Assembly (NCBI RefSeq): GCF_014637725.1
Contig: NZ_BMFC01000003.1
Span: forward strand, 62,001 to 126,000
Length of the DNA stretch: 64,000 nucleotides
Direction of reading: 5' to 3'
Origin: Marivita lacus
GTDB taxonomy: Bacteria > Pseudomonadota > Alphaproteobacteria > Rhodobacterales > Rhodobacteraceae
Shown here: positions 6,191-59,208 of the stretch, piece by piece
Layout: every line of letters starts with the position of its first letter
Numbering within the stretch: position 1 is the stretch's first letter
The notes under the pieces: model-generated
Told to the model about the DNA's origin: nothing
Databases searched by the model: none
Seen by the model: the letters and a program-made list of their open reading frames with translations, nothing else
Translations under genes and position numbers: made by a program

Positions 6191-6657
6191 GGCTTACGCG
6201 CTCCTGGCACTGGTTAACTGACGGTGATCCGGGGATCAGACGGGCAGGGGCACGGATGGGACGGGCCCCGTGCAGGTGCCGTTCGGGCTGAGGTCTGAAT
6301 TTGCCTGTGACATCGCGCCCTCCCGTTTGATCCCTGCTCGTGCACGATGGAAAACGGTTGGCAGCAGGTCCGGTTTAGGAAGGATCAGCCCGGACTATCT
6401 TTTGCGCGCAGACGCACGCCGATGGCCCCTTGCGTGAATTCCCGTCGTCTTGGTCGAAGGCACAACCTGCGTCGGCCTGACCGACTCGTGCAGGGCCGCA
6501 TGGTACGTCCCGTCCGGGTTCGTCCGGATCACCTGAGAACAAATCGATCTTGTGCCCCGTGGGTCGCGCAGGTCGCCGACATAGAAGCGCGGCCCATAGG
6601 CGGCACGAAAACCCGGTGCCGATTCATCGGACCCTCCGGCGGCCAGCGCGGCGCGCC
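6191..6657. other. Gene-poor region upstream of the Hint-RTX gene
   Basis: 467 bases with no gene I can name. The minus strand holds an open frame (about 6650 down to 6395) of fairly natural composition, including FYVGDLRDPRG and VIRTNPDGTYHAAL. It lacks an ATG outside the neighbouring amidohydrolase gene; the only start candidates are internal, such as a GTG. It may be a short gene or a remnant. The stretch nearest 6191 must carry the promoter and leader of the Hint-RTX gene. Confidence 0.4.
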
Positions 6658-7926
6658 TCAGAGCTTCAGATACGCACCTGCCCAAGCGCAGAGCACCGCG
6701 CAGGCCTGCCCGAAATCGGCGAGATCCATCGCTTCGGCGGGGTTGTGGCTGCCGTTCTCGTTGCGGATGAACACCATCGCAGAGGGCACGCCCTGACCTG
6801 CGAAGGTGGCGCAATCATGCCCGCCGCCCGAAGGCAACTCAAAACTGTCGATGCCACAGGCATGCGCCGCCGCGACAAGGCCCCGCCGCAGCCGCGCATC
6901 CATCGGGGCCGCGGCGGCCTGGGTATAGGGTCCAAGATCGATCCGGACATCCCGCCGCTCTGCGATGTCCCGCGCCTGTTTCTGCAGCCAATGTTCGAAC
7001 AGGGCCAGAACGGTGTCGTCCTGGCTGCGCACATCCAGCGTGAAGCTCAGCAGGCCCGGCACCTTGGTGATGCCGTGGAGCCGGGCATCGGTGGTGAATT
7101 CGCCCAAGGTCAGGACCATGTCCTCGCCCTTGGCTTCGGCCTCCACCCAATAGGTCTCCATCGCGTGGGCCAGTTCGACGCCTGCCAGCACGGCATCGCG
7201 GCGGCTTTGGCGTGGTACACCGCCCGCATGGGTGGTCTCGCCCTCGATGCGGCAGAACCGGTGCCGGATATTGCCCCGGATCGCGGTCACGATGCCGACC
7301 GGGCACCCCGCCTCGATCAGAACCGGCCCCTGTTCGATATGCATCTCGACAAAGGCGCCGATCCGGTTGGGATCAAGCTGCGCGCGGCTGTCGCGGATCG
7401 CCTGCGGATCGCGCCGCGCTTCGGTCATGTGATCGGCCAGTGTGCGCCCGGTGTCGCTGCGCCGCAGCCGATCAGGGGCGTCGGCGGGCAACACCCCGAA
7501 CGCGGCCCGGCTGCCAAGGTAATGCTCGGGGAACCAGATCATCTCTTCGGCGCGGATCGCCATCAGCGTCACGTCGCAGGGTGGCTGTGGCCCGTCCAGC
7601 AAATGCTCCAGCAGCACCAGCCCGCCGATCACCCCCGCGGCACCGTCGAAATTGCCGCCGTGCGGCACGCTGTCCAGATGCGAGCCGGTCATCAGCACCG
7701 GCGCATCGCGGTCCTGTCCCGTCAGCGTGACATACAGATTGCCGACGGCGTCGGTGCGCGTGTCCAGCCCCAGAGCCACGGCCTCGCGCGTGATCATCGC
7801 ATGGGCGGCATCCTCGACCGGGCCAAAGCTCGCGCGCGTCACACCGGGCGCATCCGCGCTCAGGTCGGCCAGTTCGGCAAAGAGCCGCTCGGCACGTGCC
7901 AGCGGGGTTGCAAGGTCGGGGCGCAT
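6658..7926 (-). CDS. M20-family Zn-dependent amidohydrolase (N-carbamoyl amino acid / allantoate hydrolase type)
   Basis: 422 residues, usual family length. It should hydrolyse an N-carbamoyl or related ureido bond in the cytoplasm using two metal ions. Visible motifs: GSHLDSVPHGGNFDG (metal ligands His and Asp), RAEEMIWF around the catalytic/metal Glu pair, HIEQGPVL (metal His plus the family's EQG signature), SGGGHDC and NGSHNPAE near the end. These match the hydantoinase/carbamoylase branch of peptidase family M20 rather than plain aminoacylases. It is last in a minus-strand run behind a racemase-fold gene, an amidase and a PuuE-like hydrolase, with only 2 bases between it and the racemase-fold gene. 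The true substrate (allantoate, beta-ureidopropionate or a carbamoyl amino acid) cannot be told from sequence. Confidence 0.85.
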   Translation of the reverse strand: MRPDLATPLARAERLFAELADLSADAPGVTRASFGPVEDAAHAMITREAVALGLDTRTDAVGNLYVTLTGQDRDAPVLMTGSHLDSVPHGGNFDGAAGVIGGLVLLEHLLDGPQPPCDVTLMAIRAEEMIWFPEHYLGSRAAFGVLPADAPDRLRRSDTGRTLADHMTEARRDPQAIRDSRAQLDPNRIGAFVEMHIEQGPVLIEAGCPVGIVTAIRGNIRHRFCRIEGETTHAGGVPRQSRRDAVLAGVELAHAMETYWVEAEAKGEDMVLTLGEFTTDARLHGITKVPGLLSFTLDVRSQDDTVLALFEHWLQKQARDIAERRDVRIDLGPYTQAAAAPMDARLRRGLVAAAHACGIDSFELPSGGGHDCATFAGQGVPSAMVFIRNENGSHNPAEAMDLADFGQACAVLCAWAGAYLKL

Positions 7927-43974: not shown

Positions 43975-46900
43975 ATGAATAATGAATCTCGAGACGCAAT
44001 GATCCCTCATAGCCTGTACGAGCGCGAAAAGCAGGTGCGTCTTGAAGCCGAAGCGCTTCTGGAAGCGAAGAAGCAGGAAATCTCAGAGATGAACCATCGG
44101 CTCATGGCCGAAGCAGAGTCCGTACGCGCAGCGCTTGCAGACACCGAAGCCGCCCGGCTGCGCGAATCCGCGGTTCTGAAAGAACGGTCGATCCTGTCCG
44201 AGGCGCTGAAGGCGCTGACGGGCAAGTCCGGCGCGGATGAGGCGATGCAGTGCCTGTTGACCGTGCTCCGGCGCGAGATCGGCGGGCGTGACTGCTTTTT
44301 CGTGCAGGCCGAAGGTGATCACACCGTCATTGCGGCCTCTGCGGACAGCGCCCATGTCGGCCATGCGCTGCCTTTGCCCGCCGCGATGATCGACAGGCCC
44401 AGACGGATGGCACGAATAACCTCGCTGCTCGCGGGCTATTCATGGCCGGGCGGCACGGAGTGTCTTGCCTCCATGTTGATCGTGCCGCTTGAAATAGGGA
44501 ACGAAAAGGCCGGTGCCTTCGTTTTGGCGTGCCTGCAGAGCGCGTGCTATTCGGCGGGTGATCTGCGGACATTGGAGCAAGTCGCCCGGCTGGCCGCGCA
44601 GGCACTGCTCGCACTTCGAGAGGCTCGCCGCAACGCGCTTCTGGTCGCGCTGGTCGAGGGCAAGTCGCTTGAAACATCCGAAGCGGTTCTGGATGCGCCG
44701 CTCGAGGCGGTGCACAGGGCGTTTTCACGCCTGACCGACATGCAGGGACAGGTCGTCGGTATCCTTGACAACCTGCTGGGCGCGTCATTGCAGGACGCGG
44801 ACGCGGCGATAGATACGGCGCTGGCCCGGATGGGCGAATTGACCGAAAGCGACCGGGTCTACGTGTACCGCCTGCGGTCCTCCGGCGATTTCATCGACAA
44901 CACTCACCTCTGGTGCGCGCCCGACGTGGCGCCAGCGCTTGAGATTCCCAAAGAGTACCCGGCCCACATGTTCGACAACGTCCGCGCCAGCTTTGACGCG
45001 GGTAAAGAAGTGTTGATCTCCGACGTCTCCGCAATGCCGGATGACGCACCTGAGAAGCAACTGTTGCGTGATCATGGCGTGCGGTCGCACCTTACGGTTC
45101 CGATGGTGGAAAATGGTGCGCTTCGGGCGCTTGTCAGTTTCGACTCGATCCGCACCCAGCGCAATTACCTGCCCGGTGAGGTGCATCTGATCCGATCGGT
45201 GGCCAAGGTCATCCTGTCGGTGTTGGCGCGCCGGGATGCCGAGGAAAAGCTGGTGCAGGCAAATGCCGAAGCATTGTCGCAGCAGAAGCGTCTCAAGGCA
45301 GTTCTGTCCGCGATGCCGGACCTGATCGTGGAACTGGACCGCGATGGGCGTCTCGTGTCGCTGCATTCGGCCAGCGTTGTGGTGCCCGATGGGGTGTTCG
45401 AGGCCGCGTTCAATCGCACGCCCGAAGAAAGACTTTCGCCAGAGTATGCGAAAGGCCTGCGCGACTTGATGGCCGAACTCGACGCAGGGGCGCAGGTTGT
45501 CCGAAGCACCTTCGAGATGTCCATCACGGCGCCGACACGGCAATGGTGGCAGATGACAGCCTCTGCCATCGGTGATCAGGGCTATGTCCTGGCGATGCGC
45601 GACATCACCGAGGCGCGGGAGAAGTCGCTGGAAATCGAACGGCTTTCGGAAATCGCGCGCCGGACCACCAACCTAGTTGTTTTGACCGACGCGGAACGCC
45701 GTATCGAATGGGTGAACGACGCATTCGTAGACACGACCGGTTGGACGCTGGAAGACGTGAAGGGCAAAAAACCTGGCGAATTCCTGCAAAGCGAAGGGAC
45801 GGACCCCCAGACCGTCACGGCGATACGCGACGCTCTGGACAACGAAAAGGCAGTTCAGGTGGAAATTCTGAACCGGTCCCGGACCGGCCGGGAGTATTGG
45901 CTGTCGCTTGATATTCATCCTTTGCATGATGCAGCGGGCGAATTGGAAGGCTTCCTGGCGCTCGAAGTCGATATCACCGACAAGCGCAAACAAGCCGAGT
46001 CTCTGCGCCGCGCGGCAGCTGAAGCCGCACTGGCGCGGGCCAACCTCGAAAAGGCGGTCGAGGCATTGCAGGACGGGTTCGTTCTTTATGATGCCGACGA
46101 TTGCCTCGTGATCTGCAACAGCCGATTCCGCGAGATCTATGCGCTGTCGGAACCGGCCCTCGTGACCGGGGCCAGCTTTGAAAGCATCGTGCGCTACGGG
46201 TTGGCGGTTGGTGAATATCCTTCAGCCATTGGGCGCGAAGAGGAATTTCTGGCTGAACGTCTGCGTCAGCATGCGCAACCCGACCGCGAAACCGAACAGA
46301 AGCTCAGCGACGGAACTTGGCTGCGCGTTTTCGAAAAATCCATGCCCGACGGGGGACGCGTCGAACTGCGCGTCGATATCACGGAACTCAAGCTGGCAGA
46401 GCGGCGCGCGCTGGCGGACAAGGCTGCCGCGATGGCCGCCAGCCGGGACGGGATCGCGATCACCGACCACAAGGGGCTGTTCAACTATACCAACCGCGCG
46501 CATCTCGAGATGTTCGGCTACGCCTCCGAAAAGGAGCTTCTGGGGCAAAGCTGGTCCATGCTCTATGGCCCCGAAGAGGCGGAATGGATGGAGGCCAACG
46601 TGATGCCCGCGGTGATGCGGGATGGTGGCTGGTCGGGAGAGATCGTCGGTTTGGCCAAGTATGGCGCTCCAGTTTACCAGGATGTCTCCCTGACTCTGAA
46701 AGACGATGGCGGTCTGCTGTGCATCACGCGGGACATCTCGGTGCGGAATCGAGAACGTGCCGAACGCGACCGCTTGCTGAACGAACTGCAGCTTGCCCAA
46801 CGCCGCGAGATCATCGGACAGATCGCGGCGGGACTTGCGCATGACTTCAACAACCTGCTGGCCATCATCTCGGGCGGGGCGTCGCTGATCGTGGAGCAGG

Positions 46901-47940
46901 CTGAAGACCGGGGTGCAGAAGCGGTCGGTGCATCACGTATTCTCGCGGCATCGGATCAGGCTGCGGGGCTGGTGAAGCGGCTCCTGACCCTCGGGGCACG
47001 TCAATCGGCACGCATCGATCTGGACATGCGGCGACCGGTGCAGGAGGCGGCAGAGCTTGTCCGGTCCAGCCTGCGCGTCCCCATGCGCCTTGCACTGAAT
47101 CTGCCCGACACGCCCGTCGATGCGCAGGCGGACCCGACGGATGTTCTGCAGCTGCTTCTGAACCTCGCGATCAACGCGCGCGATGCGATGGCTTCGCAGT
47201 CCGGAACGATCTCGATCCGGTTGGTTGCAGCCGAAGAGCCTGCACCGACAGACCCAATCGTCGTCGGGCGCATCAATCCTGCGCGGCGCTATGCCCGCCT
47301 GACCGTCGAGGACAATGGCCCCGGAATGCCGCCAGAGGTCGCCGCGAAAATCCTGACGCCCTATTACAGCACCAAGGGCGAGATGGGCACCGGGCTTGGC
47401 CTTGCTGTCGTGTCGTCGGTGATCGAGGACAACGGCGGAGCCATGAGCCTGACCACCGAGCCGGGAAAAGGCACGAGGTTCGATGTATACTGGCCCGTCA
47501 GTGCCGGTCAGGAAGCTGCCGTTGCCTCTGTGCCGAATGACGAACTGACCGGGCGGCTGGACGGGCGCATGATCCTCGTGGTCGATGACCAACCCGAGGT
47601 GCTGGACGTGATCACCGCCTATCTCGAAGCTGCCGGTGCCGAGGTCGCGGCCACCACGTACCCGGCGGATGTGCTCGAGGCGCTGCGCGATGACCCGACC
47701 CACTGGGACCTGCTGGTGACCGATTTCGACATGCCTGACATGGACGGTGCCGACCTGGCCGAAGCGGCCAAAAACATCGTGCCGGACTTGCCGATCATTC
47801 TTGTCACGGCTCTCGCCCGCGAGGCGGGGCGGACCGGTCCGCTGTTTACCGGAGTTCTGTCGAAACCTATCGATCGCAAATCACTTGTGTTACAATGCGA
47901 GATGTCTCTTCTTCGGTCGGAAAGCGACCAGAAAGATTAG
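43975..47940 (+). CDS. Hybrid sensor histidine kinase with GAF, PAS and receiver domains
   Basis: 1321 residues, no membrane helix, so cytoplasmic. Domains: N-terminal coiled coil (about 10-70), GAF-like (about 80-215), a second GAF (about 255-415; TESDRVYVYRL), about four PAS modules (about 430-545, 555-680, 690-805, 815-930), HisKA with phosphorylated His956 (GLAHDFNNLLAII), ATPase (NLAINARDAM, EDNGPGMPP, GTGLGLAVV), and a C-terminal receiver with Asp1250 (LLVTDFDMPDMDG). It probably takes a signal from the FIST protein and passes phosphate to the LuxR-type regulator encoded 3 bases downstream. Confidence 0.9.
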   Translation: MNNESRDAMIPHSLYEREKQVRLEAEALLEAKKQEISEMNHRLMAEAESVRAALADTEAARLRESAVLKERSILSEALKALTGKSGADEAMQCLLTVLRREIGGRDCFFVQAEGDHTVIAASADSAHVGHALPLPAAMIDRPRRMARITSLLAGYSWPGGTECLASMLIVPLEIGNEKAGAFVLACLQSACYSAGDLRTLEQVARLAAQALLALREARRNALLVALVEGKSLETSEAVLDAPLEAVHRAFSRLTDMQGQVVGILDNLLGASLQDADAAIDTALARMGELTESDRVYVYRLRSSGDFIDNTHLWCAPDVAPALEIPKEYPAHMFDNVRASFDAGKEVLISDVSAMPDDAPEKQLLRDHGVRSHLTVPMVENGALRALVSFDSIRTQRNYLPGEVHLIRSVAKVILSVLARRDAEEKLVQANAEALSQQKRLKAVLSAMPDLIVELDRDGRLVSLHSASVVVPDGVFEAAFNRTPEERLSPEYAKGLRDLMAELDAGAQVVRSTFEMSITAPTRQWWQMTASAIGDQGYVLAMRDITEAREKSLEIERLSEIARRTTNLVVLTDAERRIEWVNDAFVDTTGWTLEDVKGKKPGEFLQSEGTDPQTVTAIRDALDNEKAVQVEILNRSRTGREYWLSLDIHPLHDAAGELEGFLALEVDITDKRKQAESLRRAAAEAALARANLEKAVEALQDGFVLYDADDCLVICNSRFREIYALSEPALVTGASFESIVRYGLAVGEYPSAIGREEEFLAERLRQHAQPDRETEQKLSDGTWLRVFEKSMPDGGRVELRVDITELKLAERRALADKAAAMAASRDGIAITDHKGLFNYTNRAHLEMFGYASEKELLGQSWSMLYGPEEAEWMEANVMPAVMRDGGWSGEIVGLAKYGAPVYQDVSLTLKDDGGLLCITRDISVRNRERAERDRLLNELQLAQRREIIGQIAAGLAHDFNNLLAIISGGASLIVEQAEDRGAEAVGASRILAASDQAAGLVKRLLTLGARQSARIDLDMRRPVQEAAELVRSSLRVPMRLALNLPDTPVDAQADPTDVLQLLLNLAINARDAMASQSGTISIRLVAAEEPAPTDPIVVGRINPARRYARLTVEDNGPGMPPEVAAKILTPYYSTKGEMGTGLGLAVVSSVIEDNGGAMSLTTEPGKGTRFDVYWPVSAGQEAAVASVPNDELTGRLDGRMILVVDDQPEVLDVITAYLEAAGAEVAATTYPADVLEALRDDPTHWDLLVTDFDMPDMDGADLAEAAKNIVPDLPIILVTALAREAGRTGPLFTGVLSKPIDRKSLVLQCEMSLLRSESDQKD

Positions 47941-47943
47941 GCT

Positions 47944-48558
47944 ATGCGTGTCTTGATTGCGGACGATCAGAAAATGCTGCGCGATGTGTTCGACGCGATG
48001 CTGTCGCGCGACAACATCACCGTTGCGCTGGCTCCGGATCTGGATGCGGCGCTTGTCGAAGTGGACAAGGGCGATCCGTTCGATTTGATCCTGCTGGACT
48101 ACCACATGCCGGGCATGGACGGTCTGGACGGTTTGCGCCGCGCCTTGGACGCCGGCAAGGGGGCTGCGGTTGCGCTGATGTCCGGCAACCTGCCGCAGCA
48201 GATCGTGCAGGACGCGCTGCGTCTGGGCGCAGCCGGGTTCATGCCCAAGAAACTGTCGCCGAAAACCTATGTGCAGGCCATTCGCGCCATGGCCGCCGGG
48301 GAACGGCTGAACCTGCAGGACGATTGGAGCAGTTTCGAGGTCGGGACATCTGATCCGACCGCCGAACACCGTCTGACATCGCGTGAACTGCTGGTGCTGC
48401 AACAGCTCGACAGCGGCAAATCGCTGCCCGAGATCGCCCTGGCGCTTGGCCTCAAGGACGTGACGGTGAATTTCGTGGTCAAGACGCTCTGCCGCAAGTT
48501 CGACGCGCGCGATCAGGCCGATGCTGTGGTGATCGCGCGTCAGGCCGGAGTGATCTGA
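47944..48558 (+). CDS. Response regulator, receiver plus LuxR-type helix-turn-helix
   Basis: 204 residues. Receiver domain with acidic pair in IADDQKML, phosphorylated Asp52 (LLDYHMPGMDG) and Lys near 104 (GFMPKKLS). The C-terminal HTH is of NarL/LuxR type (LTSRELLVLQQLDSGKSLPEIALALGLKDVTVNFVVKTL). It follows the hybrid kinase with three bases between, so it is the natural output of that system. No target operator was recognised. Confidence 0.9.
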   Translation: MRVLIADDQKMLRDVFDAMLSRDNITVALAPDLDAALVEVDKGDPFDLILLDYHMPGMDGLDGLRRALDAGKGAAVALMSGNLPQQIVQDALRLGAAGFMPKKLSPKTYVQAIRAMAAGERLNLQDDWSSFEVGTSDPTAEHRLTSRELLVLQQLDSGKSLPEIALALGLKDVTVNFVVKTLCRKFDARDQADAVVIARQAGVI

Positions 48559-48711
48559 CAGTCCGCTGTCCCGACCCGAAACCTTCCTGCGTTGCCCGTA
48601 AATTGGCCGTTTTCAGAGGAACCGGCCTATTCAATGGGCATCTGACTGCACAGGGCTTTGCACGATCAGCAACGTCTTGCCTGACATCACTCTCCTGCGA
48701 TTTGGTGGAGT
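48559..48711. other. Spacer upstream of the guanidine riboswitch
   Basis: Non-coding, between the response regulator stop and the aptamer. It should contain the promoter of the guanidine operon. I see no confident -35/-10 pair and no T-rich hairpin. Confidence 0.4.
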
Positions 48712-48822
48712 TGCAGGATGTCTAGGGTTCCGCATGTTGTGCATGGTCCGGTCCGAGAGATATCGCTGTTCGGTCAATCCCGAACAGTACACGGCGGGGC
48801 AAAATCCCGGGAGGCTACTGCG
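48712..48822 (+). ncRNA. Guanidine-I (ykkC) riboswitch aptamer
   Basis: The conserved ykkC core is present in order: CTAGGGTTCCG (48722-48732), GGTCCGAGAG (48750-48759), ACACGGCGGGG (48790-48800) and CAAAATCCCGGGAGG (48800-48814). The closing P1 helix can form between GCAG (48713-48716) and CTGC (48818-48821). A perfect 8-bp P3 hairpin, CTGTTCGG/CCGAACAG, lies at 48766-48787. This RNA class binds free guanidinium and switches on guanidine export or breakdown genes. Downstream genes are an importer and a GdmH-type hydrolase, matching the ligand. Confidence 0.93.
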
Positions 48823-48827
48823 CTGGT

Positions 48828-48872
48828 TTGACCCGCGCTCCGCTCATGCCCTCCTCGCGGTCAATCCATTTT
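48828..48872 (+). terminator. Candidate terminator of the riboswitch expression platform
   Basis: TTGACCCGCG (48828-48837) can pair with CGCGGTCAA (48856-48864), one bulged base, followed by TCCATTTT. It lies between the aptamer and the first gene, as expected for a guanidine-I switch in which ligand binding prevents termination. The loop also holds CCTCC, which might pair with the ribosome site. The mechanism is inferred. Confidence 0.6.
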
Positions 48873-48896
48873 GTAGATGATTGATGGGGACCGAAG

Positions 48897-49943
48897 ATGA
48901 ACAAGCTTGTATCCACAACTGCCCTGGCTCTGTGCCTTGCTACCAGCGCCGTCGCCCAGGAAAAAACCGATTTCCGTGTCGCGTGGTCGATCTATGTCGG
49001 CTGGATGCCGTGGGGTTATCTCGAAGACAGCGGCATCATGGACAAATGGGCCGACACATACGGGATCGATGTCGAGATCGTGCAGATCAACGACTATATC
49101 GAGTCGATCAACCAATACACCGCCGGCCAGTTCGACGGCGTGTCCGCCACCAATATGGACACGCTGTCGATCCCGTCAGGCGGAGGTGTCGACACCACCG
49201 CCCTGATCGTGGGCGATTATTCCAACGGCAATGACGCGGTGATTATCAAGGGCGAGGGCGACCTGACCACGCTTGCGGGCAAGCCGGTGAACCTCGTGGA
49301 GTTGTCCGTGTCGCATTACCTGCTGGCGCGGGGGCTCGACAGCGTGGGCCTGTCAGAGGCCGATTTGGCCGGGGTGATCAACACCTCGGATGCCGACATG
49401 ATCGCGGCCTTTGCAACCAGTGATGTCGAAGCGGTGGTGACATGGAATCCTCTGGTGTCGTCCATTCTGGAAACGCCGGGGGCCAACGCGGTCTTCGACA
49501 GTTCGGACATCCCCGGAGAGATCATCGACCTGATGGTGGTGAACACTGAAACGCTTGCCGCGAACCCGGATTTCGGCAAGGCGCTTGTTGGCGCATGGTA
49601 CGAGGTCATGGGCCTGATGGCTGCGGGCGACGAGGCTGTCCTGACCGCCATGGCCGACGCCTCGGGCACCGATCTCGCGGGCTACAAGGCGCAGTTGGAC
49701 TCGACCGAGATGTTCTACGATCCCGCCGCCGCCGTCGCCTTCACCGAAAGCGCGGAGCTGCCGCAGACCATGGTGAATGTCGCGGAGTTCCTGTTCGACA
49801 AGGGCATTCTGGGCGAAGGCGCGCCCTCGGCGGATTTCGTCGGTGTCGCCTATCCGGACGGGACGGTCACCGGGGACGCCAACAACGTGCGCTTCCGCTT
49901 TGACACGACCTACATGCAAATGGCCGCCGACGGCAGCCTTTAA
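48897..49943 (+). CDS. Guanidine ABC importer substrate-binding protein
   Basis: 348 residues with a Sec signal peptide (LVSTTALALCLATSAVAQ). The body (WSIYVGWMPWGYLEDSGIMDKWADTY, QFDGVSATNMDTLSIP) fits the NrtA/SsuA/TauA-like class, and specifically the branch often labelled urea-carboxylase-associated, which sits under ykkC riboswitches. Acidic and aromatic residues are plentiful, fitting a cationic ligand. ATG 48897 lies behind GGGGA just after the riboswitch. Ligand is inferred to be guanidinium. Confidence 0.85.
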   Translation: MNKLVSTTALALCLATSAVAQEKTDFRVAWSIYVGWMPWGYLEDSGIMDKWADTYGIDVEIVQINDYIESINQYTAGQFDGVSATNMDTLSIPSGGGVDTTALIVGDYSNGNDAVIIKGEGDLTTLAGKPVNLVELSVSHYLLARGLDSVGLSEADLAGVINTSDADMIAAFATSDVEAVVTWNPLVSSILETPGANAVFDSSDIPGEIIDLMVVNTETLAANPDFGKALVGAWYEVMGLMAAGDEAVLTAMADASGTDLAGYKAQLDSTEMFYDPAAAVAFTESAELPQTMVNVAEFLFDKGILGEGAPSADFVGVAYPDGTVTGDANNVRFRFDTTYMQMAADGSL

Positions 49944-49981
49944 GGACCACACCGTCACGCCCGCGCGTGGCGGTGCCCCCG

Positions 49982-50794
49982 ATGCGTCTGATCAACATAA
50001 AACCCGGCCCCGCGCTCGCGCTGTTTCTTGTCCTGCTGCCCTTTGCAGCGGTGCTGATCGCCTATGCAGTGGGCTCCGACATCCGCCTGACGGCAAACCC
50101 GTCGGACAAGCTGTTGCCCGCGCCGGGCACGGTGGGCGACTCGATGATGCGGCTGCTCACCGAAGGCGATAGACGCACGGGCCGCATCCTCTTCTGGTAC
50201 GACACATGGGCCAGCCTGCAACGGCTCTGGCTGGGTATCGCGATCTCGGCCAGCGTCGGGCTGGTGATCGGCCTGCTGATCGGGCTGTTTCCGCTGATGC
50301 GCAGCCTGCTCGCGCAATTCGTGGCGGTGCTGTCGATGATCCCGCCGTTGGCGTTGTTGCCGATCCTGTTCATCGTGTTCGGGCTGGGAGAGCTGTCCAA
50401 GGTCGTGTTGATCGTGGTGGGCACCCTGCCGTTCATCATCCGCGACCTGAGCCAGCGCACGGTCGAAATTCCGCAGGAACTGCTGGTCAAGGCGCAGACC
50501 CTTGGTGCGTCAAGCTGGGTCATCGCGATCCGCGTGGCGCTGCCGCAGGTCATGCCGCGCCTCATCCAGGCGGTGCGCCTGTCACTGGGCCCAGCGTGGC
50601 TGTTCCTGATTGCCGCCGAGGCCATCGCGTCTGATCTGGGGCTGGGCTACCGCATTTTCCTGGTGCGCCGTTACCTCGCGATGGATGTGATCCTGACCTA
50701 CGTGATCTGGATCACGCTGCTTGCCTTCGCCATGGATTGGCTGCTGCGCCGCGCCTCGCGCCGGTTCTTCCCCTGGGCGGAGGAGGGGCTGTGA
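49982..50794 (+). CDS. Guanidine ABC importer permease
   Basis: 270 residues from ATG 49982. About six hydrophobic helices; the permease coupling loop is EIPQELLVKAQTLGASSWVIAIRVALPQVMP, as in nitrate/sulfonate/taurine permeases. The N-terminus reads MRLINIKPGP and is followed by a first helix. Its stop overlaps the GTG start of the ATPase gene (GTGA). Confidence 0.88.
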   Translation: MRLINIKPGPALALFLVLLPFAAVLIAYAVGSDIRLTANPSDKLLPAPGTVGDSMMRLLTEGDRRTGRILFWYDTWASLQRLWLGIAISASVGLVIGLLIGLFPLMRSLLAQFVAVLSMIPPLALLPILFIVFGLGELSKVVLIVVGTLPFIIRDLSQRTVEIPQELLVKAQTLGASSWVIAIRVALPQVMPRLIQAVRLSLGPAWLFLIAAEAIASDLGLGYRIFLVRRYLAMDVILTYVIWITLLAFAMDWLLRRASRRFFPWAEEGL

Positions 50795-51558
50795 GCTTTG
50801 TCACCGTCCGTGACCTGTTCCAGACCTATGGCAGCCGTCCGATCATCGAACGGGTGAATGTCGACGTGGCCGAGGGCGAATTCATCTCGATCGTGGGCGC
50901 GTCGGGCTGTGGCAAATCCACCTTCCTGCGGCTGCTTCTGGCGCAGGAACGTCCCACCCGTGGCGAGATCCGCATCGACGGCGCAGAGCCTGCGCGCGAA
51001 CCGGGGCTGGACCGGGGCATCGTGTTCCAGCGGTATTCCGTCTTCCCGCACATGACCGTGCGCGACAACATCGTGGCGGGCGAAAGCTTTCGCGCGGGCT
51101 GGGGTCGCTTTTTTGGCGACGCGGCGAGGGCGGCGCGTGACCGCGCGGACGAGACGCTCGCACGGATCGGACTGGATCATGTCGCCGACAATTACCCCGC
51201 CACGCTCTCGGGTGGCATGCAGCAGCGCCTTGCCATTGCGCAGGCGCTGGCTGCGAAACCCCGCGTCCTGCTGCTTGATGAGCCGTTTGGCGCTCTTGAC
51301 CCCGGCACGCGGCTGTCGATGCACGGTTTCCTGCAGGACTTGCGCGCCGAGACAGGCATGACCGTGTTCATGGTCACCCATGACCTCGAAGAGGCGTTCA
51401 AGCTGGGCGACCGCGTTCTGGTCTTCGACAAGCCGCGCTGGGATCCGCACGATCCGTCCCGTTACGGCGCGACCATCACCTACGATTTCGATGCCCGCGA
51501 TGGCGGCATCCCGTTTCAGACCCTGAAGGAGAACATCCATGTTCCAGAGCCGCACTGA
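50791..51558 (+). CDS. Guanidine ABC importer ATP-binding protein
   Basis: 255 residues from GTG 50791, with GGAGGAGGGG just upstream. Walker A GASGCGKST, Q-loop VFQRYSVFPHMTV, signature LSGGMQQRLA, Walker B VLLLDEPFGALD, switch His in MVTHDLEEA: a complete SsuB/TauB-like ATPase. The last 20 bases overlap the start of the hydrolase gene. Confidence 0.9.
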   Translation: MSFVTVRDLFQTYGSRPIIERVNVDVAEGEFISIVGASGCGKSTFLRLLLAQERPTRGEIRIDGAEPAREPGLDRGIVFQRYSVFPHMTVRDNIVAGESFRAGWGRFFGDAARAARDRADETLARIGLDHVADNYPATLSGGMQQRLAIAQALAAKPRVLLLDEPFGALDPGTRLSMHGFLQDLRAETGMTVFMVTHDLEEAFKLGDRVLVFDKPRWDPHDPSRYGATITYDFDARDGGIPFQTLKENIHVPEPH

Positions 51559-52783
51559 CCGGTCCCGGTCGCACCATCCGGCAGACCACCGCCGCACCGA
51601 GGCGCGCCATCACCATCCCGACCTGACCAAGCTGCGTGGCTGGAAGGCGATGCATGACGAGGCGGGCATCCCCGGCAGCGGCTGGGAGCAAGAGCGCAAA
51701 TGGGCGCTGCGCATGGGGCTGACGGGTGCCGACAGCATCGAGGACAAATCCATCCCCACCTTCGCGCGCGGGGAACTGCCGCATTACGCAGGCATCAACA
51801 CGTTTCTCAAGGCGCCTTACGCCGAGGACGTGACCGAGGTGGGGGATTACGACGCCACCGTGCTGGGCATCCCCTTTGACGGTGGCACGACCTACCGCGC
51901 GGGCACGCGGTTCGGCCCGCAAGGTGTGCGCAAGATCAGCGCGCTGTATACGCCCTACAACTACGAAATGGCGGTCGATCTGCGCGAACAGATGACGCTC
52001 TGCGATGCAGGCGACGTGTTCACGATCCCAGCCAACATCGAAAAGACCTTTGATCAGATCAGCCGCGCGGTCAGTCATGTGGCCTCTTCGGGCAGCCTGC
52101 CTATCATGATCGGCGGCGACCATTCCATCGGCTTTCCCTGCGTGCGCGGCATTGCGGAGTGCACCTCCAAGAAGATCGGCATCGTGCATTTCGACCGCCA
52201 TGCCGACATCCAGGAGAAGGACCTCGATGAGCGGATGCACACGACGCCGTGGTTCCATTCGACCAACCTGCCCAACGTGCCCGCCAAGAACCTTGTGCAG
52301 GTCGGGATTGGTGGCTGGCAGGTGCCGCGCGAGGCGGTAAAGGTGGCGCGTGAGCGCGAGACCAACATCATCACCATGGGCGACATGGAAAAGATGGGCA
52401 TCGACCGCACCGCCGAAATGGCGCTGGAAATGGCATGGGACGGGGTGGACATGGTCTACATGTCCTTCGACATCGACAGCATCGACTGCGGCTTTGTGCC
52501 CGGTACGGGCTGGCCCGAACCCGGCGGGTTCCTGCCGCGAGAGGCGCTGGCGCTGGCCTCCAAGGTCGCGGCCGAGGGCATCTGCGGGATGGAACTGGTC
52601 GAGGTGGCTCCGCCCTACGACCAGTCCGAGATCACCGCCCTCATGGGTACCCGCGTGATCGTCGATGTGCTGGGCAGCCTTGTGGCCTCCGGCAACCTTG
52701 GCAAGCACAAGCGCCATATCGACAAGCCCGTAACGATCCCCCATGGCGAATTCGAAGGAAAGCGGTGGTCCAATGCCACATGA
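51539..52783 (+). CDS. gdmH: GdmH-type guanidine hydrolase (arginase/agmatinase superfamily)
   Basis: 414 residues; AAGGAG lies before ATG 51539. It should hydrolyse guanidine to urea and ammonia. Metal ligands of the ureohydrolase fold are complete: His195 (GGDHS), Asp219, His221 and Asp223 (FDRHAD), Asp311 and Asp313 (SFDIDSID). The long N-terminal extension before the core (~100 residues) and the GFVPGTGWPEPGG segment fit the guanidine hydrolase branch, which uses nickel, rather than Mn agmatinases. Its first 26 residues contain six His. Riboswitch and importer upstream support the substrate. Agmatinase or another ureohydrolase remains possible without assay. Confidence 0.85.
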   Translation: MFQSRTDRSRSHHPADHRRTEARHHHPDLTKLRGWKAMHDEAGIPGSGWEQERKWALRMGLTGADSIEDKSIPTFARGELPHYAGINTFLKAPYAEDVTEVGDYDATVLGIPFDGGTTYRAGTRFGPQGVRKISALYTPYNYEMAVDLREQMTLCDAGDVFTIPANIEKTFDQISRAVSHVASSGSLPIMIGGDHSIGFPCVRGIAECTSKKIGIVHFDRHADIQEKDLDERMHTTPWFHSTNLPNVPAKNLVQVGIGGWQVPREAVKVARERETNIITMGDMEKMGIDRTAEMALEMAWDGVDMVYMSFDIDSIDCGFVPGTGWPEPGGFLPREALALASKVAAEGICGMELVEVAPPYDQSEITALMGTRVIVDVLGSLVASGNLGKHKRHIDKPVTIPHGEFEGKRWSNAT

Positions 52784-53201
52784 TATCGTGAACGGCCATA
52801 TCGGCCACAACCACAGCCACGGCGACCATCTGCACAGCCATATGCCCGATGCGGACCGGGCAGAGGAGTTGCAGGTACTCACCGCGCAATTCATCGATGG
52901 CTTCGTCAGTGCCAAGGACAAGATGTCCTATCTGCGGCTGGCCGGTGTGCCGCTGGAAATCGAAGCCCCCGAAGGCGGGCCGTCGATGAAGCTGGTGGAT
53001 GTCCAGTTGACGACCGAATGGCAGGTCGGCACGGCGTCGCCCTCGTTCGGGTCGCAGGAACTGTCCTATCTGCCCTATCCCGGCGACATGGTGACGGAGC
53101 GGACGAATATGGGCTTTGTTTATGTCTCGTTGCGGGCCAAGCACGTGACCGACCTGCGCGCGTTTCTCAAGCACCACCCCGCCGCGCGCGACGTGTCCTG
53201 A
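52773..53201 (+). CDS. His-rich small protein coupled to the guanidine hydrolase, candidate metal carrier
   Basis: 142 residues from ATG 52773, overlapping the hydrolase stop by 11 bases and preceded by AAGGAAAG. The first 23 residues contain eight His (positions 3, 9, 12, 14, 16, 19, 21, 23), a pattern typical of nickel or zinc storage tails. The rest (about 25-142) is a compact domain I do not recognise, with AEELQVLTAQFIDGFVSAKD and a beta-rich centre. Because the hydrolase class needs nickel and known operons include HypA/HypB-like maturation factors absent here, a role in metal delivery is a testable inference. Confidence 0.75.
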   Translation: MPHDIVNGHIGHNHSHGDHLHSHMPDADRAEELQVLTAQFIDGFVSAKDKMSYLRLAGVPLEIEAPEGGPSMKLVDVQLTTEWQVGTASPSFGSQELSYLPYPGDMVTERTNMGFVYVSLRAKHVTDLRAFLKHHPAARDVS

Positions 53202-53213
53202 GGGCAGGGCGCG

Positions 53214-53705
53214 TCACGCCTCCAGACGCTCGAGATCCATCGGAGTGCGCGGCTTGGCCTCCGGGTCGCTGTCCAGAACCGCGTGCATCCGTTCCATGAC
53301 GCGATAGAAAATGGCCAGCTCGTCAGGGCTGACCGCATCGGTCAGCTGCCGTTCGAGGCGCGTGGCCTCGGGGATGATGTCCGCCAGCGCCCGCCGCCCG
53401 GCCGTGGTCAGCGAGATCGACACCAGCCGCCCGTCGCCGGACCCAGCCGTCTTTGCGACCAGACCTTCGGCCTCGAGCCGCGTCACCGCGCGGCTGACCC
53501 GTGGTTTTTCCAGACTGACGCAGGTGTGGATGTCCCGGATCGACACCGCGCCGCAGCGCAGCAGGTGTACCAGAACGCGCCATTCGGCCACCGCCAGACC
53601 ATGGGTGCGCCCGTATTCGACCGCAAGCCGTCGGCTGACCCGTTCCGTCAGCACGGCAAGCCGGTAGGGCAGGAAGGTCGACAGCTGAAAATCGTCGGGC
53701 GTCAT
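53214..53705 (-). CDS. MarR-family transcription regulator
   Basis: 163 residues from ATG 53705. Winged helix core: LAVAEWRVLVHLLRCGAVSIRDIHTCVSLEKPRVSRAVTRLEAEGLV, then the wing GSGDGRLVSISLTTAGRRAL. It is divergent from the homogentisate operon and its gene ends 12 bases after the guanidine operon, convergently. It most likely controls the homogentisate genes, using an aromatic acid as ligand, via the palindrome at 53726-53736. Confidence 0.87.
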   Translation of the reverse strand: MTPDDFQLSTFLPYRLAVLTERVSRRLAVEYGRTHGLAVAEWRVLVHLLRCGAVSIRDIHTCVSLEKPRVSRAVTRLEAEGLVAKTAGSGDGRLVSISLTTAGRRALADIIPEATRLERQLTDAVSPDELAIFYRVMERMHAVLDSDPEAKPRTPMDLERLEA

Positions 53706-53725
53706 GGCGGGGTCCAAACTCGTTG

Positions 53726-53736
53726 CATTTGAAATG
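53726..53736. promoter_or_regulatory. CATTT-G-AAATG palindrome, candidate MarR operator
   Basis: Perfect 5-bp arms around one central base, in the 115-base gap between the MarR gene and the divergent homogentisate operon. It is short, so the assignment rests mainly on position. Confidence 0.45.
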
Positions 53737-53820
53737 ATATTGACTTTCGCTCTCTTGGCAACGACTAATGACCTGCCCTCGGGTGCCATGCACCGGGGAA
53801 CCTAGGGGAGAGACGCACAC

Positions 53821-54765
53821 ATGGCCTTTGCATCGCAGGGTGACACCGCTGAAAAGCAGATTTCCTTTACCGAGATCGGTGACGGGCTTTATGCCTTCAC
53901 CGCCGAAGGAGACCCGAATTCCGGTGTGATCATCGGCGACGACTCGGTCATGATCGTCGAGGCGCAGGCCACGCCGCGTCTCGCGCAAAAGGTGATCGAT
54001 TGCGTGCGCAGCGTCACCGAAAAGCCGATTTCCCATGTGGTCCTGACCCATTACCACGCGGTGCGCGTGCTGGGTGCCAGCGCCTTTGACGCCGATCAGA
54101 TCATCATGTCCGACGCCGCGCGCGGCATGGTGGTCGAGCGGGGGCAGGAAGACTGGGACAGCGAATTCCAGCGCTTCCCGCGCCTGTTCGAGGGCCACGA
54201 AAGCATTCCCGGTCTGACATGGCCCACCACCACCTTCAGCGACAGCATGACGGTCTATCTTGGCAAGCGGAAGGTCGAGATCAAGCAGATCGGCCGCGCG
54301 CACACGGCGGGGGACAGCGTGATCTGGGTGCCGGACAGTCAGACCATGTTCACCGGCGATATCGTCGAATATCACTCCGCCTGTTACTGCGGTGACGGCC
54401 ATTTCGAGGAGTGGGGCAGCACGCTCGATGCGGTCAAGGCCTATGATCCGCAAAGCATTGCACCGGGGCGCGGCGATGCGCTGATCGGACGCGATATGGT
54501 GGACGCAGCACTGGCCAACACCCGCGACTTTGTCGACAGCACCTACAACGCGGTCAAGCCGATTGCCGCCAAGGGGGGAACCCTCAAGGAAGCATGGGAC
54601 GCCGTGCGCGCCGCCTGCGATCCGAAATTCAAGGATTACGCCATCTACGAACACTGCCTGCCGTTCAACGTGGCCCGCGCCTATGATGAAGCGCGCGGGA
54701 TCGTGCACCCGCGCATCTGGACGGCAGAACGCGATCTGGAAATGTGGGCGCAACTGCAAGGCTGA
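53821..54765 (+). CDS. Metallo-beta-lactamase-fold protein with degenerate metal motif
   Basis: 314 residues. The MBL fold is seen in VMIVEAQATP, VVLTHYHAVRVLGAS, QIGRAHTAGDSVIWV and MFTGDIVEY. The canonical HxHxDH motif is changed: His77 and His79 remain, but the Asp and second His positions are Val81 and Arg82, so one metal site is incomplete. First gene of the homogentisate operon. It could be a thioesterase or lactonase-like hydrolase acting with one metal, or a non-catalytic relative. Confidence 0.82.
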   Translation: MAFASQGDTAEKQISFTEIGDGLYAFTAEGDPNSGVIIGDDSVMIVEAQATPRLAQKVIDCVRSVTEKPISHVVLTHYHAVRVLGASAFDADQIIMSDAARGMVVERGQEDWDSEFQRFPRLFEGHESIPGLTWPTTTFSDSMTVYLGKRKVEIKQIGRAHTAGDSVIWVPDSQTMFTGDIVEYHSACYCGDGHFEEWGSTLDAVKAYDPQSIAPGRGDALIGRDMVDAALANTRDFVDSTYNAVKPIAAKGGTLKEAWDAVRAACDPKFKDYAIYEHCLPFNVARAYDEARGIVHPRIWTAERDLEMWAQLQG

Positions 54766-54793
54766 GACCGAGCGACGGGGGAGGAGACCCATC

Positions 54794-56407
54794 ATGCCGC
54801 TGGATGACCGCTATCAACTGGCGTTCACGCTGTATCCCTATACGCGCAGCACCGATCAGGGCGCGTCCGTGCCGGTGCGGCACCCGGTGGTTGTCATGGG
54901 GGGCGGCCCGGTCGGCATCGCCACGGCGCTTGATCTCGGGTTGCAGGGCATTCCCGTTGTCCTGCTTGATGATCACGAAGGGGTCGGGCAGGGGTCGCGG
55001 GCGATCTGTTTTGCGAAACGTACGCTCGAGATCGCCCATCGGTACGGCTGCGGCCAGCCGATGCTGGACAAGGGCGTGGTCTGGAACCTGGGCAAGGTGT
55101 TTCACGACGACCGGCAGGTGTTCGAGTTCAACCTGCTGCCGGAACAGGGCCACCGCTATCCGGCCTTCATCAACCTGCAACAGCCTTATTTCGAACGCTT
55201 CCTCGTGGACCGCGTGCGCGAGGCGCAGGCCCAAGGCGCGCCGATTGACCTGCGGGGCAAGAACCGCGTCGATACGGTCGAGGTCAAGGACGACCATGTC
55301 ATCCTCGACATCACCACACCTGACGGTCCCTACCGGATCGCGGCGGATTGGCTGATCGGCTGCGACGGCGCGTCCAGCCCGCTGCGCAAGATGATGGGGC
55401 TCGATTTCGAAGGCCGGGTGTTCGAGGACAATTTCCTGATCGCCGACATCACGATGAAGGCGGATTTCCCGACCGAACGCTGGTTCTGGTTCGAGCCGCA
55501 TTTCAAATCCGGCGACAGCGCGCTCTTGCACAAGCAGCCGGACGGCGTGTGGCGGATCGACTTCCAGCTGGGCTGGGACATCGACCGCACCGAAGAACTG
55601 AAAGAGGAAAATGTCCGCCGCCGTCTCGACGCGATGCTCGGCCCGGATGTGGACTACGAACTGGTCTGGACCTCGATCTACCGGTTCCAGTGCCGCCGGA
55701 TGAAAACCTTTCGCAAGGGTCGGGTGATCTTTGCCGGGGACGCGGCGCACCAGGTCTCGCCCTTTGGGGCGCGCGGGGCGAATTCCGGCATTCAGGACGT
55801 GGACAATCTGGGCTGGAAACTGGGTCTGGTCCTGAATGGAACGGCACCCGAGGCGTTGCTGGACAGCTACGATCTTGAGCGTCGGCACGGCGCGGACGAA
55901 AACATCCTCAACTCGTCCCGTTCGACCGATTTCATCACGCCGAAATCCCGCATCAGCCACGTGTTCCGCAACGCGGTGCTCGATCTGGCGGAACACCACG
56001 CCTTTGCCCGACCGCTGGTCAATTCCGGGCGGCTCTCTGTGCCCTGCGTCTATGACGGCCTGCCGTTGAACACGCCCGACGCCCTGCCGTATGGCCCGTC
56101 CCGCACCCGCCCCGGCGCGCCTTGCCCTGATGCGCCTTTGGGGCAGGGGTTCCTGCTGGACCATCTGGGCGGTGATTTCGTGCTGCTTGGGGTGGGCGTC
56201 GATGTGCCGGATACGCTCTCTGCCCACGGATTGGTGCTGCGCGGCCTGTCCGTGCCTGCGGCAGGCGACATCAGGGGCCGCTATCTGGGCGACGCGCCCG
56301 GTGCCGTCTACCTGATCCGGCCCGACCAGCATGTGGCGGCGCGCTGGCCCACCTTCGACGAGGCGGCGGTGCGGGCCGCACTTGCCACCGCGATTGCAAA
56401 GGACTGA
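54794..56407 (+). CDS. FAD-dependent aromatic monooxygenase (MhpA/PheA-like)
   Basis: 537 residues from ATG 54794. FAD motifs of class A flavin hydroxylases: VVMGGGPVGIATALDLGLQG (dinucleotide loop), ADWLIGCDGASSPLR (DG motif), and GRVIFAGDAAHQVSPFGARGANSGIQDVDNLGWKL (second FAD motif). It hydroxylates a phenolic acid with NAD(P)H and oxygen. Located just before hmgA, it probably makes homogentisate, for example from a hydroxyphenylacetate; no 4-hydroxyphenylpyruvate dioxygenase gene is in this operon. Substrate is inferred. Confidence 0.85.
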   Translation: MPLDDRYQLAFTLYPYTRSTDQGASVPVRHPVVVMGGGPVGIATALDLGLQGIPVVLLDDHEGVGQGSRAICFAKRTLEIAHRYGCGQPMLDKGVVWNLGKVFHDDRQVFEFNLLPEQGHRYPAFINLQQPYFERFLVDRVREAQAQGAPIDLRGKNRVDTVEVKDDHVILDITTPDGPYRIAADWLIGCDGASSPLRKMMGLDFEGRVFEDNFLIADITMKADFPTERWFWFEPHFKSGDSALLHKQPDGVWRIDFQLGWDIDRTEELKEENVRRRLDAMLGPDVDYELVWTSIYRFQCRRMKTFRKGRVIFAGDAAHQVSPFGARGANSGIQDVDNLGWKLGLVLNGTAPEALLDSYDLERRHGADENILNSSRSTDFITPKSRISHVFRNAVLDLAEHHAFARPLVNSGRLSVPCVYDGLPLNTPDALPYGPSRTRPGAPCPDAPLGQGFLLDHLGGDFVLLGVGVDVPDTLSAHGLVLRGLSVPAAGDIRGRYLGDAPGAVYLIRPDQHVAARWPTFDEAAVRAALATAIAKD

Positions 56408-56411
56408 CGCC

Positions 56412-56609
56412 ATGGCGCTCAACACCGCCCCCAACATTCCCGATCCCGATGGGTTCTATGCCGAATTGCTCGACGCCCATGACGGGCTGAGCGATGATGA
56501 CAGCATCGCGTTCAACGCCCGTTTGATCCTCATTCTTGCCAACCATATCGGCGACCGCGCGGTGCTGACCGAAGCGTTGGCCGCCGTATCGAAAGGAGAC
56601 ACGCGATGA
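56412..56609 (+). CDS. DUF2783-family small protein
   Basis: 65 residues. [38 protein letters not shown] matches the DUF2783 pattern of small proteins regularly found between the FAD monooxygenase and hmgA in alphaproteobacteria. Overlaps hmgA by four bases. Function unknown; a partner or stabiliser of the monooxygenase is only a guess from conserved position. Confidence 0.8.
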
Positions 56610-57955
56610 ATGCTCCGAACACCTCCGGCCTCATTCAGGCCAATGGCAGCCTGACCGAGCCCGGCTACATGCCCGGCTGGGCCAATGATTTCGAGACCGA
56701 GGCACTGCCCGACGCCCTGCCGCGTGGCATGAACAGCCCACAGAAATGCAATTACGGCCTTTACGGCGAACAGCTGTCCGGCACCGCCTTTACCGCCAAC
56801 CCGCCCGAACGCACCTGGAGCTACCGCATCCGGCCCTCGGTCAAGCATTCGGCGCGCTATGCGCGGATCGATCTGCCCTATTGGAAAAGCGCGCCCAACG
56901 TCGTGGACAACGTGACCTCCTTGGGCCAGTACCGCTGGGACGCGATCCCGCATTCCGGTGAGCATCTGACATGGCTGACCGGCATGCGGACCATGACCAC
57001 GGCGGGTGACGTGAACATCCAGGTTGGCATGGCCAGCCATGTCTACCTTGTCACCCAAAGCATGAAGGACGCCTATTTCTTCAGTGCCGACAGCGAGTTG
57101 CTGGTCGTTCCTCAAGAGGGGCGGCTGCGTTTCGCCACGGAACTGGGCATCATTGACGTCGAGCCCAAGGAGATCGCCATCCTTCCGCGCGGCCTTGTCT
57201 ACCGGGTCGAAGTGCTGGACGGTCCGTGCCGGGGCTTTGTCTGCGAAAACTACGGGCAGAAATTCGAACTGCCAGCCCGTGGCCCGATCGGGGCCAACTG
57301 CATGGCCAATCCGCGCGATTTCAAGGTGCCCGTTGCCGCCTTCGAGGACCGCGAGGTGCCGTCGACGCTGACGGTCAAGTGGTGCGGGCAGTTCCATGAA
57401 ACGCAGATCGGGCAAAGCCCGCTCGACGTGGTGGCGTGGCATGGCAATTACGCGCCGTACAAGTATGATTTGCGGACCTATTGTCCGGTCGGCGCGATCC
57501 TGTTCGACCATCCCGATCCGTCGATCTTTACCGTCCTCACTGCGCCCTCGGGTGTGCCCGGCACGGCGAATATCGACTTCGTGCTGTTCCGCGAACGGTG
57601 GCTGGTGGCGGAAAACACCTTCCGTCCGCCGTGGTATCACAAGAACATCATGTCCGAACTGATGGGCAACATCTACGGCCAGTATGACGCCAAACCGCAG
57701 GGGTTTGTCCCCGGCGGCATGAGCCTGCACAACATGATGCTGCCGCATGGCCCGGACCGCGAGGCATTCGAGAAAGCGTCGAATGCCAATCTGGGGCCGG
57801 ACAAGCTCGACCGCACCATGTCCTTCATGTTCGAGACGAGGTTTCCGCAGCATCTGACTGAATTTGCAGGAAAAGAGGCGCCGTTGCAGGACGACTACAT
57901 CGACTGCTGGGACAGCCTTGAGAAGAAATTCGACGGCACTCCGGGGAAGAAGTGA
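56606..57955 (+). CDS. hmgA: Homogentisate 1,2-dioxygenase
   Basis: 449 residues, full length. It opens the homogentisate ring to maleylacetoacetate using non-haem Fe(II). The family segments [55 protein letters not shown]-like ([22 protein letters not shown], iron ligands His and Glu) and [15 protein letters not shown] (iron His) are all present. Its stop overlaps the next gene's start region. Confidence 0.96.
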
Positions 57956-57957
57956 CC

Positions 57958-59208
57958 ATGGCCCTGCGTCGTTCCTGGCTGGACAGCGCCAATGCGCCGG
58001 ACTGCGATTTCCCGCTGAACAACCTGCCCTTTGGAGTGTTTTCCGTGGGTGACAGCGATCTGCGCTGCGGTGTTGCCATCGGCGACAGGATCGTCGATGC
58101 GACCGGGCTCGAGGCGGCGGGCCTCCTGCGCGCCGATCCGCAGGCGGATGTGCTGGACGCGCCCTTTTGGAACGACTTCATGGAACTGGGCCCCGCCGCA
58201 TGGTCCCGCTACCGTGCCGCGCTGACCGCGATGCTGGCCGAAGGCGCGGACGAGGCCCTGCAGGATCACATCATCACCCATTCCGTGCAGATGACGCGGG
58301 CGGCGCTGCATATGCCCTTCCGGGTCAGCGAATACACTGATTTCTACTCTGGGCGGCATCACGCCACCAATGTGGGCACGATGTTTCGAGGTGCCGAAAA
58401 CGCGCTGCCGCCGAACTGGCTGCATATTCCCATCGGCTATAACGGTCGGGCGTCCTCGGTCGTGGTTTCTGGCACGCCAGTGACGCGACCGCACGGCCAG
58501 ATCAAGGGGCAGGACGACGCCGCGCCGCGCTTTGCACCCTCGGCCCGGTTCGACATCGAGCTTGAGATCGGCGCAATCGTCGGGCAGGCGTCGGACGGCC
58601 TCATCAGCGTCGCGCAGGCCTTCGACAACATCTTCGGCTATGTCGTGCTGAACGACTGGTCCGCCCGCGACATTCAGGCGTGGGAATACCAGCCGCTCGG
58701 CCCGTTTCAGGCCAAGGCAACGGCGACGACGATCAGCCCGTGGATCGTCACCGCCGAAGCGCTGGTGCCGTTTCGCACAAGCACGCCCGCACGGGAAACA
58801 CCGTTGCTGGACTACCTCACCGAACCCGGCCCGATGCTCTATGATATCACGCTCGAGGTCGGGCTGACGCCTGAGCAGGGCACCGAGACCGTCATCACCC
58901 GCACCAACTACGCCGAGATGTATTACTCCGCCGCGCAGCAACTGGCGCATCACACAAGCTCTGGCTGCCCGATGCGGGTAGGGGATCTGTTGGGGTCCGG
59001 CACCATCTCGGGACCGGAAAAGCACAATCGCGGCTCTTTGCTGGAACTCAGCTGGGGCGGGACAGAGCCGCTGACATTGGACAGCGGCGGGACCCGTAGC
59101 TTTGTCGAGGACGGAGACACTCTGACCCTGCGCGGTCATGCGCAGGGCGATGGGTATCGCGTTGGCTTCGGGGCTTGCACAGGGACCGTGCTTCCGGCGC
59201 GGCGGTAA
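57958..59208 (+). CDS. fahA: Fumarylacetoacetase
   Basis: 416 residues from ATG 57958; a GTG two codons upstream overlaps the hmgA stop and is possible. It cleaves fumarylacetoacetate to fumarate and acetoacetate. Seen: SWLDSANAPDCDFPLNNLPFGVF at the start, YTDFYSGRHHATNVGTMFRG (catalytic His and metal Asp), FDIELEIGAIVG (metal Glu pair), GYVVLNDWSARDIQAWEYQPLGPF (Asp and Lys region). No maleylacetoacetate isomerase gene is in the window, so that step must be encoded elsewhere or by a glutathione transferase. Confidence 0.95.
   Translation: MALRRSWLDSANAPDCDFPLNNLPFGVFSVGDSDLRCGVAIGDRIVDATGLEAAGLLRADPQADVLDAPFWNDFMELGPAAWSRYRAALTAMLAEGADEALQDHIITHSVQMTRAALHMPFRVSEYTDFYSGRHHATNVGTMFRGAENALPPNWLHIPIGYNGRASSVVVSGTPVTRPHGQIKGQDDAAPRFAPSARFDIELEIGAIVGQASDGLISVAQAFDNIFGYVVLNDWSARDIQAWEYQPLGPFQAKATATTISPWIVTAEALVPFRTSTPARETPLLDYLTEPGPMLYDITLEVGLTPEQGTETVITRTNYAEMYYSAAQQLAHHTSSGCPMRVGDLLGSGTISGPEKHNRGSLLELSWGGTEPLTLDSGGTRSFVEDGDTLTLRGHAQGDGYRVGFGACTGTVLPARR

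Follow-up and report, generated by a model that had tools for sequence, protein, structure and literature searches.

In Synechocystis sp. PCC 6803, the operon of the guanidine hydrolase GdmH (sll1077 and its neighbours) features a Guanidine-I riboswitch and an ATP-binding cassette (ABC) importer (PMC8390497, PMC12186494). According to these papers, hypA and hypB are located alongside, and both genes are described as frequent members of GdmH operons (PMC8390497). The guanidinase of the comammox bacterium Nitrospira inopinata is a GdmH orthologue which likewise follows a Guanidine-I riboswitch, with an APC-type permease in the locus and no nickel chaperones nearby; its nickel loading is stated to be unclear, with no chaperone found (PMC11410670). 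A further likeness is given by MefH and DmgH, the hydrolases of metformin and dimethylguanidine, which are nickel ureohydrolases with dedicated accessory genes and whose activation depended on HypA and HypB (PMC11399263). The subject of this analysis is an operon in a stretch of 64,000 nucleotides of Marivita lacus (NZ_BMFC01000003.1, positions 62,001 to 126,000, in the following the window), in which a Guanidine-I riboswitch, an ABC importer and a GdmH-type hydrolase are followed by a small histidine-tailed protein, here called the partner.

The operon shares riboswitch, importer type and hydrolase with Synechocystis. However, searches of the genome recovered neither HypA nor HypB, and the gene after GdmH encodes an unrelated His-tailed protein. 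It differs from the N. inopinata locus by its ABC importer, and from MefH and DmgH, which come with HypA and HypB, two ureohydrolase subunits and a HupE homologue downstream (PMC11399263). We regard the operon as the GdmH guanidine-assimilation operon in its alphaproteobacterial form and, as such, as a known kind of system, whereas the partner family is undescribed in the searchable literature: no partner-like protein was recognised in the titles and abstract starts searched, although Funck et al. (2022), which lay outside this search, may already show the gene. We propose, with a probability of roughly 60%, that the partner is a nickel-delivery or maturation protein dedicated to GdmH which replaces HypA and HypB. 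It would thus be a concrete candidate for the nickel loading of guanidinases where no chaperone has been found, a gap stated for N. inopinata (PMC11410670), and the group bearing it includes, by record titles, many named and cultured strains. A wider implication would be that several alphaproteobacterial families use free guanidine as a nitrogen source.

The hydrolase as a GdmH orthologue

The best matches of the hydrolase in the PDB are GdmH of Synechocystis (7esr/7oi1, 549 bits) and the guanidinase of N. inopinata (9fek, 541 bits), and the next-best solved relative, proclavaminate amidinohydrolase, reaches 167 bits. The original prediction of an arginase-fold hydrolase with all metal ligands and a PGTGWPEPGG stretch is borne out by the PF00491 match and by the presence of that stretch and of the residues H195, D219, H221, D223, D311 and D313, which we take to be the six metal ligands of the ureohydrolase. 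Guanidinases are characterized by Thr, His and Trp at the N. inopinata positions 105, 222 and 313 (PMC11410670), and the alignment with the PDB chains places T118, H234 and W325 of the window hydrolase at these positions. Simple patterns for the signature motifs match 115 of 124 GdmH loci, the nine misses being L008, which is cut, four alphaproteobacterial loci with one motif varied or missed, and four actinobacterial loci. Judged by its sequence, the hydrolase is a GdmH orthologue, and it is expected to act on guanidine with nickel as its metal. An activity as agmatinase or another ureohydrolase was considered and dropped, because the closest relatives and the signature residues indicate a guanidinase. 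Urease alpha was found over the cut-off in the window genome and in 31 of the 32 other GdmH genomes, while in the last one the contig ends within the match; guanidine can thus be taken to ammonia by a urease encoded elsewhere in the genome.

The overall reading as a variant GdmH-type guanidine-use operon therefore stands, since the nearest solved relatives are both guanidinases, the genome encodes urease alpha, and searches of it gave no HypA or HypB. Likewise, the gene content agrees with the earlier statements that the hypA/hypB pair is missing from the operon, with a different small His-rich protein in its place, and that three ABC importer genes are present (TIGR03427, BPD_transp_1 and ABC_tran matches). 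The prediction is refined in two respects: the arrangement is not a one-off but that of every readable alphaproteobacterial GdmH locus sampled, and it is the core domain of the partner, described below, that is conserved.

Close to its N-terminus, alphaproteobacterial GdmH carries a stretch of the pattern HHP[DNST], which occurs in 119 of the 124 GdmH loci (some genomes being represented twice) and is missing in four partner-less actinobacterial loci and in L008, a locus cut inside the gene. The stretch is kept even where the tail of the partner is nearly lost (L134, L135, L138), and a search with just the first 60 residues of the window GdmH, including HHHPD, gave no match to a solved chain. 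The co-occurrence of this stretch with the partner is suggestive of a docking site, which is a guess, since the partner-less set consists of four loci of one distant phylum. Besides, in the public annotation of one relative, NZ_CP139692.1, GdmH begins only with residue 38 of its frame, which omits the HHHPD stretch (51539-51652; L109:5001-5112); the conservation of this N-terminal stretch suggests that the upstream start is the right one.

Distribution of the partner, HypA and HypB

With GdmH as query over genome contigs, the best 80 of 574 relatives, mostly Rhodobacteraceae by record titles, were read as loci. The partner follows GdmH in 79 of these best 80, always on the same strand, while the 80th locus ends at a contig edge; it overlaps the GdmH stop in 54 of the 79 and lies more than 100 nucleotides away in eight. 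Genomes were further sampled evenly from the phylum (398) and the class (385), and also from the family (120) and the genus (17). In the phylum sample, all seven GdmH genomes have an adjoining partner, compared with one of 391 genomes without GdmH (Fisher 3e-14, ignoring relatedness), and in the class sample the partner was found in 11 of 11 genomes with and two of 374 without GdmH (Fisher 1e-19, again ignoring relatedness). GdmH was present in 15 of the 120 genomes of the family sample, and within the genus both genes occur in the same four of 17 genomes. Pooling the samples resulted in 33 GdmH genomes of 11 families, in 32 of which the partner follows GdmH, in G033 at a distance of about 590 nucleotides, whereas in the 33rd (G529) the contig breaks off. 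Phylogenetic independence does not hold for these pairing counts, and there is partial overlap between the set of 80 loci and that of 33 genomes (L031 and G529 are apparently the same contig).

All copies of the partner found in genomes without GdmH are incomplete, namely a 34-residue remnant in G294 (L101), a fragment in G636 (L188) and the copy of G854 (L187). The latter locus comprises a riboswitch, an initial portion of the binding-protein gene, read in a different frame, and a whole partner core, and is apparently an operon whose middle was deleted. The four actinobacterial GdmH loci gave no match to the binding protein or permease of the window importer. In one of these four, on a Rubrobacter plasmid (L111:5840-13209), a Guanidine-I riboswitch and GdmH are found together with a sodium:solute symporter, and thus a different transporter type, as well as formamidase and urease.

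A search for hypA and hypB elsewhere in the genome, recommended along with the original prediction, gave no HypA match at E 0.001 in the window genome, which is 99.98% complete (the same search finds HypA in seven of 14 control genomes), and for HypB only two matches, both below the cut-off. One of them, with 66.5 bits, adjoins urease and is probably UreG. Among the 33 GdmH genomes, HypA was found over the cut-off in 11, with one further match below it, and HypB in ten, all of which have HypA too. None of these over-cut-off matches lies within 40 kb of GdmH, as they are located on other contigs or at least 43 kb away (43 kb in G011). The remaining 21 genomes show no HypA match of any kind, and hence no HypA that would be available to GdmH.

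Anatomy and possible role of the partner

The partner has no Pfam or NCBIfam family match over the cut-off, and when 74 and 27 members were scanned, the matches were scattered, none occurring in more than three members, and the best of them (0.0049, Zip) is probably due to the His tail. A chance open reading frame (ORF) is ruled out by 55-96% identity among 74 copies. A HypA in disguise was rejected as well, with no match to PF01155 and an hhalign probability of 0.7% against eight HypA sequences; nor does the partner match the GTPase-domain families of HypB and UreG, or the UreE family, in Pfam or NCBIfam.

The tail contains five to 26 histidines in Rhodobacteraceae copies (82 of 85 have a recognisable tail end) and one to 25 in 15 further, mostly divergent copies, with at least seven in 11 of these 15. 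A His-rich tail is accordingly not a feature of all members, the count ranging from one to 26 and the tail being nearly lost in L134, L135 and L138. In some copies, a second or displaced His-rich stretch is located at the C-terminus (L006:1414-1896 on the minus strand; L187, about 6640-7032), as if the tail were movable. Because of the variation of the tail, the core domain has to be regarded as the conserved part of the protein. Invariant in 60 aligned copies are F40, G43, D49, L74, G86, P90, Y99, P103 and Y117. An AlphaFold2 model (mean predicted local distance difference test score, pLDDT, 75.8) features helices at 26-46 and 50-56 and main strands at 72-85, 107-118 and 123-127, with the tail disordered. 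A conserved core with a varying tail would be expected if recognition of GdmH were the task of the core, leaving to the tail no more than the collection of metal. Nickel chaperones, UreE and HypB among them, commonly have His-rich tails of variable make-up, and in UreE, as in the partner, the His-rich stretch is joined to a core. HypB, termed naturally His-rich in PMC11399263, also bears such a stretch on its core, whereas the partner has no family match.

According to the proposed mechanism, guanidinium would bind the Guanidine-I riboswitch and thereby switch on the operon, and guanidine would be taken up by the ABC importer and split by GdmH into urea and ammonia, with the urease encoded elsewhere completing the pathway. 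The partner core would dock on GdmH, perhaps, as guessed from co-occurrence, at the N-terminal HHPD stretch, and the flexible His-rich tail may collect nickel and pass it to the active site, in place of the cyanobacterial HypA/HypB pair. A possible, still tentative extension is that the partner represents a new class of metal-insertion protein, i.e., one His-tailed protein which works with no GTPase and has a core unlike any solved fold at a significant level. It would load nickel into a ureohydrolase by docking on its N-terminal HHPD stretch, would have evolved independently of HypA/HypB and UreE/UreG, and would be used wherever GdmH occurs in the Alphaproteobacteria.

Several observations weigh against the partner as a nickel-delivery protein. 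Even with incomplete loading and no known chaperone, the guanidinase of N. inopinata shows activity (PMC11410670), and the four actinobacterial GdmH loci, all from plasmid records, have no partner match alongside; GdmH in general therefore needs no partner. Four of the 15 divergent copies have few histidines (L138 one, L134 three, L135 four, L139 five). The core of the 60 aligned copies contains no conserved His or Cys, with D49 as the only invariant acidic residue, and the partner resembles neither HypA in the hhalign comparison nor, in a Foldseek search of the model on the PDB at E 0.001, any solved structure. Moreover, no GdmH was found in the genome G854, in which both riboswitch and partner core are retained.

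The main rival explanation, which we consider unlikely, is that the partner permanently belongs to the GdmH structure, as a subunit or stabiliser with a role like that of the second metformin hydrolase subunit, and with the His tail being secondary. The pairing and overlap of both genes as well as the conservation of the core instead of the tail would fit this role, and MefH does require its second subunit (PMC11399263). However, the N. inopinata guanidinase is a homohexamer like GdmH of Synechocystis (PMC11410670), and a mere subunit would have no need for the His-rich tail that most copies carry. A metal buffer, for nickel or another metal, which is induced with the operon, serves cell protection or metal storage and does not itself touch GdmH, is quite improbable: such a protein might well have a variable His-rich tail and a core with no conserved metal-site residues, but it would hardly accompany a single enzyme gene through 11 families or retain a conserved core while losing its tail. 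There is equally little to be said for the urease helpers UreE/UreG, or free metal, supplying GdmH while the partner has another task in guanidine use, e.g., in support of the importer or as a sensor of urea or guanidine. Although the genome holds urease alpha with a probable UreG adjoining and N. inopinata copes with no known chaperone (PMC11410670), the partner is linked to the gene of the enzyme, and in G150 (L100) riboswitch, GdmH and partner stand together with no binding-protein or permease match within the 15 kb read.

Riboswitch, gene layout and surroundings

The features of the operon are compiled in Table 1. The original prediction of a Guanidine-I aptamer was correct, as its covariance score exceeds the gathering threshold of the family, and the aptamer is the sole Rfam match at this threshold in the 64-kb window (E 2.5e-13). 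A covariance model of our own, built from 12 aptamers including that of the window, matches 78 of the 80 loci of the GdmH query, one of the 78 being cut, and misses L029, whose upstream part lies outside the data, and L055. Of 39 other loci it matches 30, 11 of these being part of the training set, with misses including a GdmH-less locus, three actinobacterial and five alphaproteobacterial loci (one at a contig end); Rfam itself lists Guanidine-I in 11 of 19 of those 39. With a regular expression, the aptamer was recognised in 27 of the 80 loci, which is too strict given the 78 matched by the covariance model. The tentative expression platform is not among the results of a standard terminator scan, and the T-run hairpin criterion finds some hairpin in just five of 15 other loci. 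A short GCGC hairpin right after the aptamer (48821-48842), which was also seen by eye in several relatives, would compete with the T-run hairpin.

Table 1. Coordinates and supporting matches of the operon features in the window.
Feature	Position	Strand	Support
Guanidine-I (ykkC) riboswitch aptamer	48711..48815	+	Rfam RF00442, 83.1 bits (gathering 63)
Possible expression platform (tentative), G+C-rich hairpin then TTTTG	48824..48868	+	-15.6 kcal/mol, own script
Periplasmic substrate-binding protein, presumed guanidine binder	48897..49943	+	NCBIfam TIGR03427, 526.1 bits (cut-off 333.9)
ABC importer permease	49967..50794 (alternative start ATG 49982)	+	PF00528 BPD_transp_1, 68.8 bits
ABC importer ATPase	50791..51558	+	PF00005 ABC_tran, 122 bits; GTG start overlaps permease stop
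GdmH-type guanidinase, ureohydrolase family	51539..52783	+	PF00491 Arginase, 253 bits; 7esr/7oi1 549 bits, 9fek 541 bits
HHHPD motif, hydrolase N-terminal residues 24-28	51608..51622	+	HHP[DNST] in 119/124 GdmH loci
His-tailed partner, 142 aa	52773..53201	+	8 His within the tail (about 23 residues), helix/strand core behind it

The run of five genes begins 81 bases past the aptamer. It had been described as lying in one direction with overlaps, of which the common strand and the overlap of some junctions were confirmed (20 nucleotides are shared by ATPase and hydrolase, 11 by hydrolase and His-rich gene), whereas a short gap separates the binding protein and the permease, so that the overlap does not apply to every junction. 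The longest ORF of the ATPase begins at 50737, with the tabulated GTG as the likelier start, and the partner was taken to start at MPHD, which is backed by the sequences of relatives, while the ORF list puts its start at 52743. A chance arrangement is excluded, because the gene order is kept in relatives. Apart from the operon genes, no family recurs in more than eight of 114 loci (crude gene finding, top 25 clusters), and the riboswitch and its five genes thus act like a self-contained unit in changing surroundings. In the window, these surroundings consist upstream of the riboswitch (43975-48558) of a hybrid sensor-kinase-like protein of 1321 residues and a response regulator, as read from the sequence. 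Downstream (53214-59208), a MarR-type regulator on the minus strand, a hydrolase of the metallo-beta-lactamase fold and an FAD monooxygenase are located, followed further on by genes presumably resembling homogentisate dioxygenase and fumarylacetoacetase.

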